Below, piece after piece: positions 22,951 to 29,367 of a stretch of 64,000 bases of DNA. Made by a program: the position numbers and the translations under genes. The notes beneath the pieces are model-generated. The model made no database searches. It was not told the origin of the DNA and worked only from the letters and a program-made list of their open reading frames with translations. This DNA is from Gaiellaceae bacterium. Its GTDB lineage: Bacteria; Actinomycetota; Thermoleophilia; Gaiellales; Gaiellaceae. Position 1 is the first letter of the stretch. Each line of letters begins with the position of its first letter. The stretch lies in contig BPGK01000001.1 in assembly GCA_026002995.1 (NCBI GenBank), forward strand, positions 1,984,001 through 2,048,000, in the 5' to 3' direction.

Positions 22951-23631
22951 CTATCCGATGCCCACACCGAGCGCAGCCGGAAGAGCGAGGAGCGTGTCGA
23001 TCCGGTCGGGGACGTCGGGGTAGCGCCCGTCGCGGTCGAGGAGGATCGCGCGCATGCCGAGAGCCCGCGCACCCTCGATGTCGTCCTCGTAGGAGTCGCC
23101 GACCATGGCCGCCTCAGCAGGGCCGACCCCGAGCGCCTCGAGGGCGGCGACGAAGATGGACGGGTGCGGCTTGACGCGCCCGTGAGAGCGCGAGCCGACG
23201 GTCGCGTCCACCGCGAGGCCGTGGTGGGCGACGAACTCCTCGAGGTCGCGCTGCCCGTTCGAGACGAGCCCGATCAGGAGCCCGTGACGGCGGAGCTCCT
23301 CGAGCACCGGGGGCGCGTCCTCGTACAGGAGGAAGTTCTCGTGCCGCTCCCACTCGCGCACCATGTCGATGGCGCAGGCGCGAGCGCGCGCGGGATCCCC
23401 ACCCATCCCGAGGACGATCCGCTCCGTGAAGGCGAACCACACCTCCTCGTCGTGGACGAGCTCGTGGTGGCGCTGGAGCGCGTCGAGCGCCGCCTCACGG
23501 GCGTGCTCGTACAGGCTCGGGTCGAGCGCGAAACCGTGGCGCTCGCCGACGCGTCGATACCCCTCGGGGCCGAGCTCGGGCCCGGGTCGGAAGAGCGTGA
23601 AGTCGACGTCGAAGAGCACAGCGCGCAGCAT
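22951..23631 (-). CDS. HAD-superfamily hydrolase (phosphatase-like)
   Basis: This 226-aa HAD enzyme has motif I FDVDFTLFRPG at the N-terminus, motif II LVSNGQ, the motif III Lys in GRVKPHPSIF, and motif IV GDSYEDDIEGARALGM. It is probably a small-molecule phosphatase of unknown substrate. The ATG at 23631 is supported by a TATCGT box 7 nt upstream. It diverges from the ECF sigma gene. Confidence 0.9.
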   Translation of the reverse strand: MLRAVLFDVDFTLFRPGPELGPEGYRRVGERHGFALDPSLYEHAREAALDALQRHHELVHDEEVWFAFTERIVLGMGGDPARARACAIDMVREWERHENFLLYEDAPPVLEELRRHGLLIGLVSNGQRDLEEFVAHHGLAVDATVGSRSHGRVKPHPSIFVAALEALGVGPAEAAMVGDSYEDDIEGARALGMRAILLDRDGRYPDVPDRIDTLLALPAALGVGIG

Positions 23632-23638
23632 CGAGCCG

Positions 23639-23644
23639 ACGATA
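23639..23644 (-). promoter_or_regulatory. Putative -10 box of the HAD gene
   Basis: The minus strand reads TATCGT, 7 nt before ATG 23631, fitting a leaderless start. Confidence 0.45.
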
Positions 23645-23691
23645 GCCGGGAGCGTGCAGCGGGACGTCGGGGGCGCTGGCACACTCGGCCC

Positions 23692-24318
23692 GTGCAACGC
23701 GTCAGGTCGCCTGGGACGCTCGTGCGCCACGAGGACACCGAGCTCGTCTCCGCCCTCTCCCGGGGCGACGAGCGGACCTTCGCGGCGCTCGTGGAGGCAT
23801 GGGGCGGAACGATGCTGCGGCTGGCCTGTGTGTACGTCGCAAGCCGTGCCGTCGCGGAGGAGGTCGTCCAGGAGGCGTGGCTCGTCGTCCTCCGCAGCCT
23901 CGATCGCTTCGAGCGTCGCTCGAGCCTCCGCACCTGGGTGCTCGGGATCGTCGTCAACCTCGCGCGCGCGCATGCACGCGCCGAGCGACGATCCGCGCCG
24001 CTTCCTCCGGACGAGGAGCCGGCCGTCGATCCGGCACGCTTCCGGCCGCCGAGCGACCGCTGGGCCGGGCACTGGGCCACACCTCCGGCTCCTTGGCCCC
24101 TCCCGGAGGACGAGATCCTCGCCTCCGAGCTGCGCGACGTGCTCCTGCGAGCGATCGAGTCGCTCCCTCCGGCCCAGCGTGCCGTGCTCGTCCTGCGCGA
24201 CCTGGAGGGCTTCGGGGCCGCGGAGACGTGTGACGTCCTCGGCCTGAGCGAGACGAACCAGCGCGTGCTCCTCCACCGCGCGCGCTCGAAGGTGCAGACC
24301 GCGATCGAGCGCTACTAA
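23692..24318 (+). CDS. ECF RNA polymerase sigma factor
   Basis: This 208-aa sigma-70-family factor has region 2 (LRLACVYVASRAVAEEVVQE, then TWVLGIVVNLARAHAR) and region 4 (IESLPPAQRAVLVLRDLEGF, LSETNQRVLLHRARSKV). The linker is long and Pro/Trp-rich (GHWATPPAPWPLPEDE), as in some ECF groups. The next gene, 14 bp away, encodes a zinc-finger anti-sigma, so the pair probably forms an autoregulated envelope or redox-stress switch. Start GTG 23692. Confidence 0.92.
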   Translation: MQRVRSPGTLVRHEDTELVSALSRGDERTFAALVEAWGGTMLRLACVYVASRAVAEEVVQEAWLVVLRSLDRFERRSSLRTWVLGIVVNLARAHARAERRSAPLPPDEEPAVDPARFRPPSDRWAGHWATPPAPWPLPEDEILASELRDVLLRAIESLPPAQRAVLVLRDLEGFGAAETCDVLGLSETNQRVLLHRARSKVQTAIERY

Positions 24319-24332
24319 GAGAAGGAGAGATT

Positions 24333-24596
24333 GTGAACGAGCGACGGGACCGCGAGCTGGAGTGCCGCGAGCTCGTCGAGCTCGTAACCGACTACATCGA
24401 AGGCCGCCTCTCGGTGGAGGATCGCATCCGCTTCGAGGCGCACCTCGACGAGTGCCCGTACTGCCGGACGTACCTCGAGCAGATGGAGCAGACGATCGCG
24501 GTTCTCGGCTACGTGCCGGAGGAGTCGCTCTCGGACGACGCCCGCGAGGCGCTCCTGGCCGCGTTCAGAGGCTGGTCGCAGTCGGAGCTCGCGTAA
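24333..24596 (+). CDS. Zinc-finger anti-sigma factor
   Basis: This 87-aa protein has the ZAS-type motif FEAHLDECPYCRTYLEQM, a HxxxCxxC arrangement that binds zinc and can sense redox state. It sits directly after its sigma partner with a GAAGGAGA ribosome-binding site ahead of GTG 24333. No membrane helix is present, so it would be a soluble regulator. Redox sensing is family knowledge, not shown here. Confidence 0.9.
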   Translation: MNERRDRELECRELVELVTDYIEGRLSVEDRIRFEAHLDECPYCRTYLEQMEQTIAVLGYVPEESLSDDAREALLAAFRGWSQSELA

Positions 24597-24656
24597 CGGA
24601 GAGCGCGCGTCGCGACACTCACCTCCGGGCTCGTAGTCACGACGAGGAGGTTCGAG

Positions 24657-25469
24657 ATGAGTGTCCAGCTCGACGAGTACGACGAGTACAAGGCGAGACA
24701 GCGCGATCTCTGGAGCGCAGGGGACTACGCATTGCTCTCCGAGCGCATCGCGGACGTGGGAGAGCTCACGGCCATGCGGGCGGAGCTCGAGCCGGGGCTC
24801 GAGGTGCTCGACGTCGCCTGCGGCGCGGGGAACGCGTCGCTTCCGGCGGCGCGGATCGGGGCGCGGGTGACCGGAGTCGACCTCGCTCCCGCGCTGCTCG
24901 AGCGCGGGCGGACGAAGGCGGAACGCGAAGGCGTCGAGATCACCTGGGTCGAGGGCGACGCCGAGGAGCTGCCCTTTCCCGACGACTCCTTCGATCGCGT
25001 CCTCTCGACGTTCGGGCACATGTTCGCGCCTCGGCACCGGCGGGCCGCCGACGAGATGCTGCGCGTCTGTCGCCCCGGGGGGATGATCGTGACGGCAACC
25101 TGGACGGCCGATGGAACGGTGGGAAAGACGTTTGCGGCCGGCGCGCCGTTCCTGCCGCCGCCTCCCGAGTACGCCTCGCCGCCCGTCCTCTGGGGTCGCG
25201 AGGAGTACATCCACGAGATGTTCGGCGACGCCGCCCGCTCCATCGAGGTGGACCGGCACGTGAACTGGATCGTCGACGATTCGGTCGAGAGCTTCGCCGA
25301 CTTCTTCCTGAGCACGTTCCCACCGCTCGTCACGGCCCAAGCGATGCTTGGTGAGCGGTTTGGAGAGCTGCGCGAGGCGATCGTCGCGGTCTGGCGGGAC
25401 GCGAACGTCGCGCAGGACGGCGCGTTCAGGCTCCCGCAGGAGTACCTGCTCTCGGTCGTGCGCGTGTAA
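24657..25469 (+). CDS. Class I SAM-dependent methyltransferase
   Basis: This 270-aa Rossmann-fold methyltransferase has motif I VLDVACGAGNASLPAAR, the acidic strand end VTGVDLAP, GDAEELPFPDDSFDRVLSTF, and a typical LRVCRPGGMIV. Its substrate is unknown. The ATG follows AGGAGG by 6 nt. It lies 60 bp after the anti-sigma and may be part of the same transcript or regulon. A large palindrome follows the stop. Confidence 0.88.
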   Translation: MSVQLDEYDEYKARQRDLWSAGDYALLSERIADVGELTAMRAELEPGLEVLDVACGAGNASLPAARIGARVTGVDLAPALLERGRTKAEREGVEITWVEGDAEELPFPDDSFDRVLSTFGHMFAPRHRRAADEMLRVCRPGGMIVTATWTADGTVGKTFAAGAPFLPPPPEYASPPVLWGREEYIHEMFGDAARSIEVDRHVNWIVDDSVESFADFFLSTFPPLVTAQAMLGERFGELREAIVAVWRDANVAQDGAFRLPQEYLLSVVRV

Positions 25470-25486: not shown

Positions 25487-25522
25487 GCGCATGGAGGAAC
25501 CGCGCGCGGTTCCTCCATGCGC
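25487..25522. terminator. Perfect 36-bp palindrome, probable bidirectional terminator
   Basis: The arms GCGCATGGAGGAACCGCG and their exact complement meet with no spacer, 17 bp after the methyltransferase stop and 2 bp before the 3' end of tRNA-Pro. It could end transcription from both sides. There is no T-tract. Confidence 0.6.
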
Positions 25523-25524
25523 GA

Positions 25525-25598
25525 TCGGGGTGCCCAGATTTGAACTGGGGACCTCTCCGACCCGAACGGAGCGCGCTACCAGGCTGCGCCACACCCCG
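25525..25598 (-). tRNA. tRNA-Pro (CGG anticodon)
   Basis: The minus strand folds as a full cloverleaf. The acceptor arm is CGGGGTG/CACCCCG, the D arm reads GGCGCAGCCTGGTAGCGC, and the anticodon stem CTCCG/CGGAG surrounds loop TTCGGGT, anticodon CGG. The T arm has GTTCAAAT. The discriminator is A at 25525, and the CCA end is not encoded. Proline identity also fits the general resemblance to bacterial tRNA-Pro. Confidence 0.95.
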
Positions 25599-25645
25599 AG
25601 CGTGCGAAAGCGTAGCGCGTCCGCTCGAGGCGCGTCCCGCAGGCG

Positions 25646-25675
25646 TTGCGCGGCGAGGCCGGAGCCGAGTATCCT
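25646..25675 (+). promoter_or_regulatory. Putative promoter of the leader peptide and 57-aa gene
   Basis: TTGCGC (25646-25651) and TATCCT (25670-25675) are spaced by 18 bp. The -10 ends 7 nt before ATG 25683 of a tiny leader frame. The layout matches the tetR promoter in this window. Confidence 0.5.
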
Positions 25676-25682
25676 GAGCTCG

Positions 25683-25715
25683 ATGACGACGACGTTCGAG
25701 AGGCGAGCCGCGTGA
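25683..25715 (+). CDS. Putative 10-aa leader peptide
   Basis: A short frame reads MTTTFERRAA and would be leaderless from the promoter just upstream. Its stop lies in a 7-bp stem (GGCGAGC 25702-25708 with GCTCGCC 25717-25723). A hairpin with a T-tract follows. The arrangement resembles a ribosome-controlled attenuator. Translation is not proven. Confidence 0.4.
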   Translation: MTTTFERRAA

Positions 25716-25739
25716 CGCTCGCCGCTCGCGTCCCCGACG

Positions 25740-25775
25740 AGCCCGACCGTGCGGTCTGCGCCGGCGGGCTTTTTT
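25740..25775 (+). terminator. T-tract hairpin upstream of the 57-aa gene (possible attenuator)
   Basis: AGCCCG (25740-25745) pairs with CGGGCT (25765-25770). Six T residues follow immediately, at 25770-25775. The loop can form its own small ACCG/CGGT hairpin. The stop of the leader frame is 25 bp upstream, and the next gene starts 20 bp after the T-run. It could terminate the leader transcript. Confidence 0.55.
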
Positions 25776-25795
25776 GATGCCCGGAGGAGGCTCGC

Positions 25796-25969
25796 ATGGC
25801 TAACCACCTGACGCCCGACGAGATCGCGAAGGAGACGGGGATGGACCGCGAGGAGGTCATCCGCATCTGCATCGAGGAGGGCGTGCCGATCTACCAGGGG
25901 AAGATCGACAAGACGCTCTTCCAGGCAACGCTCGACGCGCTCGGCGCGGCGGCCGCCCCCCACCGCTGA
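25796..25969 (+). CDS. 57-aa conserved-looking small protein, HTH-like
   Basis: I cannot name a family for this small protein. It is preceded by a strong GGAGGAGG ribosome-binding site 5 nt upstream. The middle, LTPDEIAKETGMDREEVIRI, looks like a helix-turn-helix. It is followed by IEEGVPIYQGKIDKTLFQ and an Ala-rich end. A DNA- or RNA-binding role is inference. The codon use and start signal make it a real gene. Confidence 0.75.
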   Translation: MANHLTPDEIAKETGMDREEVIRICIEEGVPIYQGKIDKTLFQATLDALGAAAAPHR

Positions 25970-26031: not shown

Positions 26032-26556
26032 TTACGGGAGGAGCACCCCGCCGACGACGTGGATGATCCCGTTCGTCGCCTTCACGTCGGTGACGAGGAT
26101 CTCGGCGCCGTCGATGAAGGCCGAGCCGCCGCTCGACGTCACCTCCGCGAACTGGCCGTTCAGCATGCGGATCCGAGTCGAGCCCACGACGCTTGCGGCG
26201 TCCCGTCGGCCGACGGTGACGTGGTAGGCGAGGATGTTCTTCACCGTCTCGGCGTTCGCCGCCTGGAACTCCGCGCAGTTCGCCTCGGTGAGCCCGATCC
26301 GGGCGAAGGCGGCGTCCGTCGGAGCGAACACCGTGAGCTGCCCGCGCTGGCTCAGCGTCGCGACGAGGTCAGGGTACTTGGTCACGAGGCAGAGCAGGAC
26401 ATCGAAGTCCCCGGCGGCGTTGGCGGCGATCGCGGTGTCGACGAGGTTTGGCGAGGGTGCAGTCGGGCGCCCCTGGCCGGTGGCGGGGGCAGCGAGCGCG
26501 ATAGCGCCGAGGGCCGTCGTCGCGAGCACCGCGACGAGCGCGACGAGCTTCTTCAT
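26032..26556 (-). CDS. Secreted fasciclin (FAS1) domain protein
   Basis: This 174-aa protein has a Sec signal peptide (MKKLVALVAVLATTALGA) ending near APATG and one FAS1 domain. Family motifs are LTVFAPTDAAFARIG, NILAYHVTVG and the C-terminal NGIIHVVGGVLLP. FAS1 domains act in adhesion or surface contacts; which partner is unknown. It is preceded by AGGAGGGGAG. Monocistronic. Confidence 0.92.
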   Translation of the reverse strand: MKKLVALVAVLATTALGAIALAAPATGQGRPTAPSPNLVDTAIAANAAGDFDVLLCLVTKYPDLVATLSQRGQLTVFAPTDAAFARIGLTEANCAEFQAANAETVKNILAYHVTVGRRDAASVVGSTRIRMLNGQFAEVTSSGGSAFIDGAEILVTDVKATNGIIHVVGGVLLP

Positions 26557-26645
26557 CTCTCCCCTCCTGAGGGTCGAAACGACATCTGTCGAAGGTCTGT
26601 ACGACCTTCGGGCGACGGCGGATCAGCGCAGAGAGCGAGACCCGC

Positions 26646-27503
26646 CTACGAGGCGCGGGCGCGCGGGCGCGAGGCGGCCTTGCTCTTCGGCGGCGCCGCC
26701 CGCGTTGCGCTCCGCTTCTTGGCCGCCTGGACGCTCGCCTTGAGCGCCTCCATGAGGTCGACCACGGGCGCCTCGGCGACCGGCTCGGGCTCGGCGATCT
26801 CCTCCCCGCGCAGCCTCGCGTCGAGGAGCGCTCGCAGATCGCGGCGGTACTCGCTGACGAGCTCGGCGGGGTCGAAGTCGCCGGCCATGCTCTCGATCAC
26901 CTGTCGGGCGAGCTCGAGCTCGGGCTCCCTGACCTCGGTCGCCGCGACGGCTTCCGCGATCTCGGCCTGCGAGTACACGTCCTCGGCCACGAAGAGCGTC
27001 TCGAGAACCAAGGCGTCTCCCCTCGCCCGCACGAGGCAGAGGCTCTCCCGCCCCGCGCGTACGAAGCGACCCAGCGCGGCGGTCTCGGTCTGACGCATCG
27101 CCTCGAGCAGGAGGACGTACGGCCGCCGCTGGGCCTGCGTCGTGGCCGGCACGAGGTAGTAGTGGCGGTCGAAGAAGATGGGATCGACCGACGCGACGGG
27201 CACGAACGTGCGAATCTCGATCGCCCGCGAGTCGTCCCGGCGCTCGAGCGCCTCCAGATCGGCGTCCTCGACGATCACGAACCGCCCCTTCGCAACCTCG
27301 TACCCGCGGACGATCTCGTCCTGGGAGACCTCCCGATCGTGGGTGGGGCACCAGCGCTTCTGCTTGATCGGCGTCGCGCACTCGCGATGGAGGAGCCGGA
27401 AGGAGACGTCCGACTGCCGCGCCGCCGGCTTGGTCGCAGGGGCGAGCCCGACGGGGATCGAGACGAGGCCGAAGCTGAGGGAGCCGTTCCAGGTTGTGCG
27501 CAT
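26646..27503 (-). CDS. ku: Non-homologous end-joining protein Ku
   Basis: This 285-aa homodimeric Ku ring binds DNA ends for NHEJ. It starts MRTTWNGSLSFGLVSIPVGL, typical of bacterial Ku, and has SFRLLHRECATPIKQKRWCP (metal-like Cys/His pair) and VVDLMEALKASVQAAKKRSA at the C-terminus with a basic tail. ATG 27503 is chosen, with TACAGT 9 nt upstream. LigD is not in this window. Confidence 0.95.
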   Translation of the reverse strand: MRTTWNGSLSFGLVSIPVGLAPATKPAARQSDVSFRLLHRECATPIKQKRWCPTHDREVSQDEIVRGYEVAKGRFVIVEDADLEALERRDDSRAIEIRTFVPVASVDPIFFDRHYYLVPATTQAQRRPYVLLLEAMRQTETAALGRFVRAGRESLCLVRARGDALVLETLFVAEDVYSQAEIAEAVAATEVREPELELARQVIESMAGDFDPAELVSEYRRDLRALLDARLRGEEIAEPEPVAEAPVVDLMEALKASVQAAKKRSATRAAPPKSKAASRPRARAS

Positions 27504-27512
27504 GGAGAGCGA

Positions 27513-27518
27513 ACTGTA
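27513..27518 (-). promoter_or_regulatory. Putative -10 box of ku
   Basis: The minus strand reads TACAGT, 9 nt before ATG 27503. Confidence 0.45.
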
Positions 27519-27563
27519 GAGGGGACCAGCCGACTTCGCCGTCCACGGGCGCACCCCTCCGAG

Positions 27564-27569
27564 TAAGCT
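27564..27569 (+). promoter_or_regulatory. Putative -10 box of acyl-CoA synthetase
   Basis: TAAGCT ends 7 nt before GTG 27577, giving a leaderless start. Confidence 0.45.
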
Positions 27570-27576
27570 CCCAGGC

Positions 27577-29367
27577 GTGGGCGCGACGGGATCCGGAGAG
27601 ATCCGGCCGATCCGACGCACGATCGCTCGGCTCTGGCGCGACGCAGTGGCCGCGGGCCGAACGCATCCGGCCTACCTGGTCGAGGGTCGGGAGGGTTGGT
27701 CACCCGTTACGTGGTCGGAGGCCGACGAGCTCGTCCGCGCGTACGCGAACGGTCTGCTCTGGCGCGGGGTGCGCAAGGGCGACGCCTTCGGCCTGCTCGC
27801 ACGGAACAGCCTCGAGTGGGCGCTCTTCGACTACGCGCTCGGCCTGATCGGAGCTGTTGGCGTCCCGATCTACGCCAACAGCTCGTCGAAAGACGTCGGC
27901 TACCTGCTCGGGCACTCCGAGGCCGTCGGCGTCCTCTGTGAAGACGCAGACCAGCGCGCCAAGGTCGACGAGGTCGCGGCCGCGCTCGAGCGGCTCCAGC
28001 ACGTGCTCACCTTCGACGACCTCGGAGCGCTCGCCGCCGAGGGGCGGGCGTTCGCCGACGAGAACCCGACCGCGCTCGACGAGGCCTCGGCTGCCATCGC
28101 CGAGGACGACCTCTTCACGATCATCTACACCTCGGGCACGACCGGGCCGCCGAAGGGCTGCATGATCAGCCACCGCAACTACTACGCGATGGCGGCCGTC
28201 TCGGACCAGATGGAGAGCCACTACCGGTCCGACGACGTGATGCTCCTCTACCTGCCGCTCGCACACAACTTCGGGCGCTTGATGCACCTGAGCGGGGCGT
28301 ATGTCGGCTTCACGATCGCCTTCCTCGCCGACCCGCTCCGCGTCGGAGAGGCGCTGCTCGCGGTGCGGCCGACGGTGCTGCCCAGCGTGCCGCGGGTGTT
28401 CGAGAAGGTGCACGCAGCCATCCAGGGGCGCTTCGACGAGGCGACGGGCCTGAAGCGGCGCCTGATCGACTGGTCACTGCCGATCGGACGCGAGGTCAGC
28501 CGCCTCCAGTCGGAAGGCAAGCCCATCCCGAGGCTCCTCGCGCTCCAGCACCGCGTCGCGGACCGACTCGTGTTCTCGAAGGTGCGCGAGCGGGTCGGCG
28601 GTCGTCTCCGGCTCCCGATCTCCGGCGGTGCGCCGCTCGCCGCCGAGATCGCAGAGTTCTTCGACGCGATCGGCATCCGCATCCTCGAGGGCTACGGCCT
28701 CAGCGAGTGCACCACCGCCGCGACCACGAATCGGCCCGAGCGGTACCGGTTCGGATCGGTCGGGCCTCCGCTCCCCGGCGTCGAGATCCGGATCGACGAC
28801 GACGGAGAGATCCTCATCCGGAGCGAGACCGTCTTCCAGGGGTACTTCAAGGACCCCGAAGCGACCGCGGAGGTGCTCACACCCGACGGCTGGCTGCGCA
28901 CGGGCGACATCGGGAGCCTGGACGAGGACGGCTTCCTCCACATCACCGATCGCAAGAAGGACATCATCGTCACCGCCGGAGGCAAGAACGTCGCCCCGCA
29001 GAACCTCGAGAACGACCTCAAGACGTCGAGGTACATCTCCCAGGCGCTCGTCGTCGGGGATCGCAGGCCGTACGTCGCCGCACTCGTCACCCTCGACCCG
29101 GAGGAGATCGGGCGCTGGGCCGCAGCTCGGGGCATTCCGGGCGATGTGGAGACCCTCGCCCGCGACGAGCGCGTCCGGGAGCTCATCCAGGGAGTCGTCG
29201 ACGAGGTGAACCGGGAGCGATCGCGCTACGAGCAGATCAAGCGCTTCGCGATCGTCCCCCGCGACTTCACGATGGAGGCCGGCGAGGTCACACCGACGCT
29301 CAAGCTGCGAAGAAGCGCAGTCATCGAGCACTTCCGCGCCGAGATCGACGCGCTCTACGCCGCCTGA
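27577..29367 (+). CDS. Long-chain fatty acid-CoA ligase (AMP-forming)
   Basis: This 596-aa ANL-superfamily enzyme activates a fatty acid to acyl-CoA through an acyl-adenylate. The P-loop-like IIYTSGTTGPPKGCMISHRN, the A5 motif ILEGYGLSECTTAATTN, DGWLRTGDIG and DRKKDIIVTAGGKNVAP are all present. The length matches FadD15-type long-chain synthetases. GTG start after TAAGCT. It is divergent from ku and convergent with nlpC/p60. Confidence 0.92.
   Translation: MGATGSGEIRPIRRTIARLWRDAVAAGRTHPAYLVEGREGWSPVTWSEADELVRAYANGLLWRGVRKGDAFGLLARNSLEWALFDYALGLIGAVGVPIYANSSSKDVGYLLGHSEAVGVLCEDADQRAKVDEVAAALERLQHVLTFDDLGALAAEGRAFADENPTALDEASAAIAEDDLFTIIYTSGTTGPPKGCMISHRNYYAMAAVSDQMESHYRSDDVMLLYLPLAHNFGRLMHLSGAYVGFTIAFLADPLRVGEALLAVRPTVLPSVPRVFEKVHAAIQGRFDEATGLKRRLIDWSLPIGREVSRLQSEGKPIPRLLALQHRVADRLVFSKVRERVGGRLRLPISGGAPLAAEIAEFFDAIGIRILEGYGLSECTTAATTNRPERYRFGSVGPPLPGVEIRIDDDGEILIRSETVFQGYFKDPEATAEVLTPDGWLRTGDIGSLDEDGFLHITDRKKDIIVTAGGKNVAPQNLENDLKTSRYISQALVVGDRRPYVAALVTLDPEEIGRWAAARGIPGDVETLARDERVRELIQGVVDEVNRERSRYEQIKRFAIVPRDFTMEAGEVTPTLKLRRSAVIEHFRAEIDALYAA

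Follow-up and report, generated by a model that had tools for sequence, protein, structure and literature searches.

Organisation of the locus

The window, i.e., the whole 64,000-nt stretch of DNA analysed here, comes from a 2.6-Mb genome; among named genomes, Gaiellaceae/Thermoleophilia MAGs and Gaiella sp. are closely related to it. On the plus strand of the window, a leader precedes a 57-aa ORF (25796-25969), which is the putative regulated gene and is predicted to encode a winged-helix protein specific to Thermoleophilia. The leader begins with a promoter (25646-25675) composed of the -35 element TTGCGC (25646-25651), an 18-nt spacer, and the -10 element TATCCT (25670-25675). After a further 7 nt, the ATG at 25683 opens a 10-codon upstream ORF (uORF; 25683-25715) that encodes MTTTFERRAA and ends in TGA (25713-25715). 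This stop codon lies in the loop of a 7-bp stem, referred to here as stem 1 (25702-25723), in which GGCGAGC (25702-25708) pairs with GCTCGCC (25717-25723). An intrinsic terminator follows (25739-25775), formed by a GC-rich hairpin (25739-25771) that overlaps a T6 run (25770-25775), and a Shine-Dalgarno (SD) motif read from the sequence, GGAGGAGG, is located at 25783-25790. All of these elements had been listed in an initial annotation of the window and were recovered base for base. The uORF had also been described as leaderless; given the 7 nt between the -10 element and the ATG, its start is probably leaderless or nearly so.

In the single window sequence, the leader fold is unremarkable (z -1.31), and a strict promoter scan at the leader returned no sigma-70 match. 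With the single-sequence fold being unremarkable, it is the comparison across loci that makes the observed arrangement compelling. A transcript start downstream of the hairpin had been named beforehand as an observation that would speak against attenuation. A promoter between terminator and gene was rejected, as the T6 run ends 20 nt before the start codon of the 57-aa ORF (median across loci 25 nt; 10-90% range 20-37), leaving no room for a promoter, and the promoter scan found no match there.

Upstream of the leader, the interval 23300-25469 holds, one after another, a frame for an ECF-like sigma factor, a putative anti-sigma factor of the zf-HC2 type (24333-24596) and the gene of a SAM-dependent methyltransferase (24657-25469). 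They are followed by a GC-rich palindrome (25493-25515), possibly a bidirectional terminator, and by tRNA-Pro(CGG) on the minus strand (25523-25599); this tRNA is near the winged-helix gene in several relatives too. Downstream, a Fasciclin-domain protein (26032-27620, minus strand) sits between the 57-aa gene and Ku, which in several relatives is the direct neighbour. As convergent Ku genes follow the winged-helix gene in several relatives, the latter appears to be monocistronic.

Conservation of the leader across Gaiellales

At the level of the order, 100 Gaiellales loci were oriented and their upstream DNA was examined, and 99 of these were aligned for element statistics. The initial annotation had noted that the order of elements mimics ribosome-controlled attenuation. 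That order, i.e., promoter, uORF, stop-spanning stem, terminator, SD motif and gene, is kept in about 95 of the 100 loci, whereas the mutually exclusive antiterminator of a classical system was not found (see below). The promoter pattern TTGC-N17/18-TATNNT is conserved across the aligned loci, with an exact -35 TTG in 81/99 and a spacer of 17-18 nt in 95/99. In 96 of the 100 loci, a TATNNT-like -10 element is followed after 6-10 nt by an ATG or GTG that opens a frame of 8-10 codons. Since each frame is defined by its own stop, a count of codon lengths in multiples of three is to some extent circular, and the fair test is the comparison with dinucleotide shuffles, in which 0.5 loci with a promoter-spaced uORF of 7-13 codons were expected against 96/100 observed; with the start codon held in place, 5.5% of such shuffles terminate the frame after 8-10 codons. 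A terminator with a T-run is present in 95/99 loci at a median of 64 nt past the uORF stop (10-90%: 59-70), with a mean energy of -21 kcal/mol and a T-run of at least 5 in 83 of the 95, and an SD-like motif is found in 96/99. The leader anatomy, which is that of an attenuator, is far above chance and well supported by these sequence comparisons.

A covariance-model search returned one strong leader copy per genome, at the winged-helix gene, and found no leader ahead of other genes. In one genome without a protein hit (G089), the leader copy leads into the same gene, which is cut by the contig end. Weak matches of the class-level model in three genomes (G178, G196 and G160) adjoin unrelated sequence and were hence not accepted as leader copies. 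No Rfam 15 family exceeded its gathering threshold for the leader when the surroundings of the window leader and 14 related loci were searched locally, where only the tRNA passed; RF02930 (aspS) stayed below threshold (18.4 vs 42.5 bits required). This negative result rests on the local searches and not on the fast whole-window search, which came back empty even though the tRNA (25525-25598) scores 59.9 bits locally, i.e., the fast filter can miss real matches.

Length and frame of the uORF are kept, the peptide is not

A length of 9 codons predominates among the uORFs (64 loci), with 8 codons in 15 loci and 10 codons in 17. The start codon is ATG in 90 loci, GTG accounting for the other 9 and no further start being used. 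The stop is TGA in 98/99 loci and TAG in one, and across loci it keeps its place in the stem 1 loop. The encoded peptides vary freely, with 89 different sequences among 96 uORFs (e.g., MLQALERRAG, VTEALERRDA, MDRSGRQDP and MNVLARRSA). Thus, of the features whose conservation in relatives had been proposed as a check, the start, length and stop of the uORF and the hairpins are kept, whereas the leader peptide is not. The length class has changed at least 9 times on the CDS tree, and in one locus (L015, genome G027) a 60-nt insertion within the uORF leaves the frame intact, giving 29 codons. No codon bias toward one amino acid was detected, nor is there a conserved Thr; sensing of threonine, which had been suggested from the Thr-rich start of the window peptide, is rejected because the peptide is not conserved. 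Since length and stop are conserved without a conserved peptide, codon identity would appear irrelevant, and the sequence pattern fits a uORF that is translated for something other than its product. Stop-codon read-through into the terminator was also considered and set aside as uninformative: the frame past the TGA is open to the T-run in 73/93 loci, but another frame is open in 66.

Covariation and energy of the two hairpins

Covariation was tested on an alignment of 54 sequences (A2). Taken jointly, the two hairpins, stem 1 and the terminator, gave 49 cells with both sides changed vs 11.9 in shuffles (10 of 14 pairs), stem 1 contributing 5 of its 6 counted pairs, and sliding the partners by 1-3 columns abolished the pairing. 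When duplexes were formed between each arm and either its own or a swapped partner, the terminator arms (t -12.4) and the stem 1 arms (t -7.2) proved to co-evolve, and these served as positive controls for the tests described below. The energy of the stop-spanning hairpin is only modestly better than that of shuffles (mean z -0.5), a point against the reading favoured below. RNAalifold alone predicts the terminator without stem 1, which we attribute to a shifted register of stem 1 in some genera.

A class-specific, predicted winged-helix protein

A single orthologue of the 57-aa protein was found in 111 of the 129 genomes of the order, a count that includes 11 weak matches in one genus (g36; E about 1e-4) lying in open frames of mostly about 780 aa. 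These are probably IF-2 N-terminal domains rather than orthologues, since the match in one of the genomes (G011) adjoins a NusA-like gene. Class-wide, 217 of 299 genomes match. In a sample of the phylum, 22 of the 27 class genomes are among the matches listed and only two weak partial matches fall outside the class, so that, as judged from sequence, the protein is confined to Thermoleophilia in this sample.

The initial annotation of a small HTH-like protein agrees with structure prediction. The AlphaFold2 model (pLDDT 86) is most similar to BldC, Xis, RacA, terminase small subunits and IF2 N1; BldC is the top Foldseek match (probability 0.98, E 0.08), and the VIA Z scores, all below 8, are 7.0 at best, 6.2 for BldC and 5.2-5.5 for IF2 N1. 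At the sequence level, the window protein scores 13.0 bits against IF2_N (PF04760; gathering score 25.3), with weak matches in 55 of 101 relatives (best E 8e-6), and the HTH_17 profile gives a weak match below cut-off. The BldC model (NF033787, NCBIfam cut-off 77 bits) does not match the window protein and reaches E <= 0.1 in 3 of 101 relatives, and a sequence search of solved structures with the 57-aa protein gave nothing significant. The protein is predicted, on the basis of the model, to be a MerR/BldC/IF2-N1-like winged helix, and it would be expected to bind DNA. H4, T6, P7, E9, C25, P31, G35, D38 and L41 are invariant in 101 relatives; the single cysteine (C25) and histidine (H4) among them might serve metal binding or redox chemistry in a dimer.

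The leader in other Thermoleophilia lineages

Beyond Gaiellales, upstream DNA was examined in other families of the class, designated by the working codes f5, f7, f8, f10 and f11. In f5, 22 of 30 loci carry, ahead of the orthologue, a leaderless 9-12-codon uORF together with a GC-rich hairpin whose T-tract is poor; this count uses a GATAA -10 variant added after inspection of this family. Second, diverged copies of the winged-helix gene, of about 37-41% identity, occur in four f5 genomes (G134, G154, G189 and G227). In f7, a T-tract terminator precedes the gene and the leaderless frames are long. Among the f7 loci L324-L341, the uORF spans 24-28 codons in some species and 38-47 codons, running through the terminator hairpin, in others, which is perhaps a different mode of coupling. 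Neither the 16 f10 loci nor the small number of f8 and f11 loci showed such a leader upstream of the gene. As far as the upstream sequences indicate, the putative attenuator goes along with the gene in several deeply separated lineages, although its details differ among them.

Proposed mechanism and alternative explanations

The reading that we favour, at a probability of roughly 55%, is that the leader attenuates transcription of a small regulator in a uORF-dependent manner and reports on translation in general, not on one amino acid. A sigma-70-type promoter would give rise to a nearly leaderless RNA that begins with the 8-10-codon uORF, the uORF being shown by conservation and the start site suggested by promoter spacing. 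By default, polymerase would halt at the terminator before the gene, yielding an RNA of about 95 nt as judged from the anatomy, and read-through alone would yield the winged-helix regulator. A ribosome on the uORF would have to open the stop-spanning hairpin, and its progress there would report whether translation works at all.

The most serious competitor, although an unlikely one, is that the terminator merely fixes a low dose of the regulator, with the uORF protecting the 5' end or preventing stray translation and nothing being sensed. In keeping with such a constitutive brake, the uORF peptide is unconserved and the terminator stays strong and insulated throughout the modelled states: in equilibrium folding, its stem keeps a mean pairing of 0.85-0.92 both in the unoccupied leader and with a ribosome at the four reported stall positions. 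However, neither the conserved length, start and stop codon of the uORF together with the stop-spanning stem, nor the f5 leaderless uORFs with T-poor terminator-like hairpins, are easily explained by it.

A classical attenuator, in which a stalled ribosome frees a stem 1 arm to pair with a terminator arm as antiterminator, is still less probable. The stem 1 arms (GGCGGG/CCCGCC) do resemble the terminator arms, pairing is possible in 79-81% of cells, and in a minority of loci (e.g., L064, L068, L069, L077 and L082) the modelled terminator is lost once a ribosome occupies codons 3-6. Yet the covariation tests found no association between the sides of antiterminator helices formed from either stem 1 arm. 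For the 3' arm of stem 1 and the terminator, 0 cells had both sides changed, and 492 of 500 shuffles paired at least as well. Likewise, the pairs that upstream RNA forms with either terminator arm of its own locus were not stronger, and partly weaker, than pairs swapped with other species (t +0.1 to +3.3). Antiterminators from the stem 1 arms or the middle region were accordingly rejected for lack of covariation or co-evolution, and the terminator looks insulated from upstream RNA by both equilibrium folding and co-evolution. Being equilibrium calculations, the foldings may miss a transient structure.

A reading in which the locus mainly produces a small RNA of about 95 nt, alone or together with its micropeptide, and the downstream gene is read by leakage is improbable: promoter and terminator do bracket a compact, conserved and structured RNA, but it occurs only beside the winged-helix gene, once per genome, and its sequence is variable outside the hairpins and frame signals. 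Least probable of all is control of read-through by a protein, possibly the winged-helix product itself, bound to stem 1 or to the promoter, with the uORF being secondary; stem 1 is kept by covariation without a fixed sequence and the product resembles nucleic-acid-binding winged helices, but a stem whose sequence changes freely would be unusual as the site of a sequence-specific binder; a binder indifferent to sequence would still be compatible with it.

For the favoured uORF-dependent attenuator, the lack of an antiterminator means that ribosomal control, if any, must act via polymerase coupling or another factor; the terminator hairpin would lie beyond the reach of a ribosome at the uORF stop. 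Slow or failed translation would probably alter how frequently polymerase gets past the terminator, either because ribosome and polymerase are coupled or through a trans factor, and not through an RNA antiterminator. A more specific and tentative proposal is that a ribosome passing along the leaderless, fixed-length mini-ORF and through its stop hairpin changes termination at an insulated terminator about 60 nt downstream, and that general translation capacity thereby sets the level of a class-specific regulator. The signal may be general translation stress, which would turn the gene on; this direction is guessed from the analogy with whiB7/wblC.

Relation to known attenuators and significance

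Precedents built from the same parts are known in actinobacteria (PMC11550727, PMC10272879, PMC13236596). In whiB7/wblC of Actinomycetota, a proposed translation-stress sensor, the regulator gene lies, as here, behind a uORF and a Rho-independent terminator (PMC11550727, PMC13236596). However, the target at the present locus is a predicted 57-aa winged helix and not a WhiB protein, the uORF is leaderless with 8-10 codons, and no antiterminator was found. The ilvB-II motif of Corynebacterium ilvBNC has a leader peptide rich in branched-chain residues and a proposed antiterminator (PMC10272879), whereas codon bias toward a single amino acid and an antiterminator were both not detected here. Mycobacterial poly-cysteine uORFs are also leaderless actinobacterial short ORFs that act as attenuators, in their case through cysteine-responsive translation attenuation (Canestrari 2020, as cited in PMC13236596); going by that citing account, they differ in their specific codon, which has no counterpart here. 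Outside the phylum, the attenuator of a Sinorhizobium meliloti DUF1127 gene relies on uORF translation, on Rho-dependent termination and on C-rich codons (PMC12218461). It likewise places a small gene of unknown role under a uORF, which there senses translation efficiency in general, but the terminator in Gaiellales is intrinsic. Trp-type attenuators share the short leader ORF, which from its start, length and stop in 96/100 loci seems positioned for translation, and the intrinsic terminator between leader ORF and gene; unlike them, the present leader shows no run of codons for a regulated amino acid and, by equilibrium folding and co-evolution, no mutually exclusive antiterminator. Some of the actinobacterial attenuators predicted earlier also lack parts of the classical scheme (PMC1262725). 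As for the product, its predicted fold resembles BldC/MerR-type winged helices and IF2 N1, but it falls below the Pfam and NCBIfam cut-offs and forms a class-specific family with invariant H4, C25, P31, G35 and D38. No paper on this leader was found in the literature searched.

The leader would make it possible to test if control of an intrinsic terminator by a uORF can do without competing RNA structures, and part of that experiment has already been run by nature in the form of uORF length variation and the 60-nt in-frame insertion. The Gaiellales hosts are soil and water bacteria in which the gene is apparently made only when polymerase passes a built-in brake. If the favoured reading is true, a little-studied soil lineage harbours a conserved attenuator class that is absent from Rfam, which would give a lead to the signal acting on a class-specific regulator whose function is unknown.
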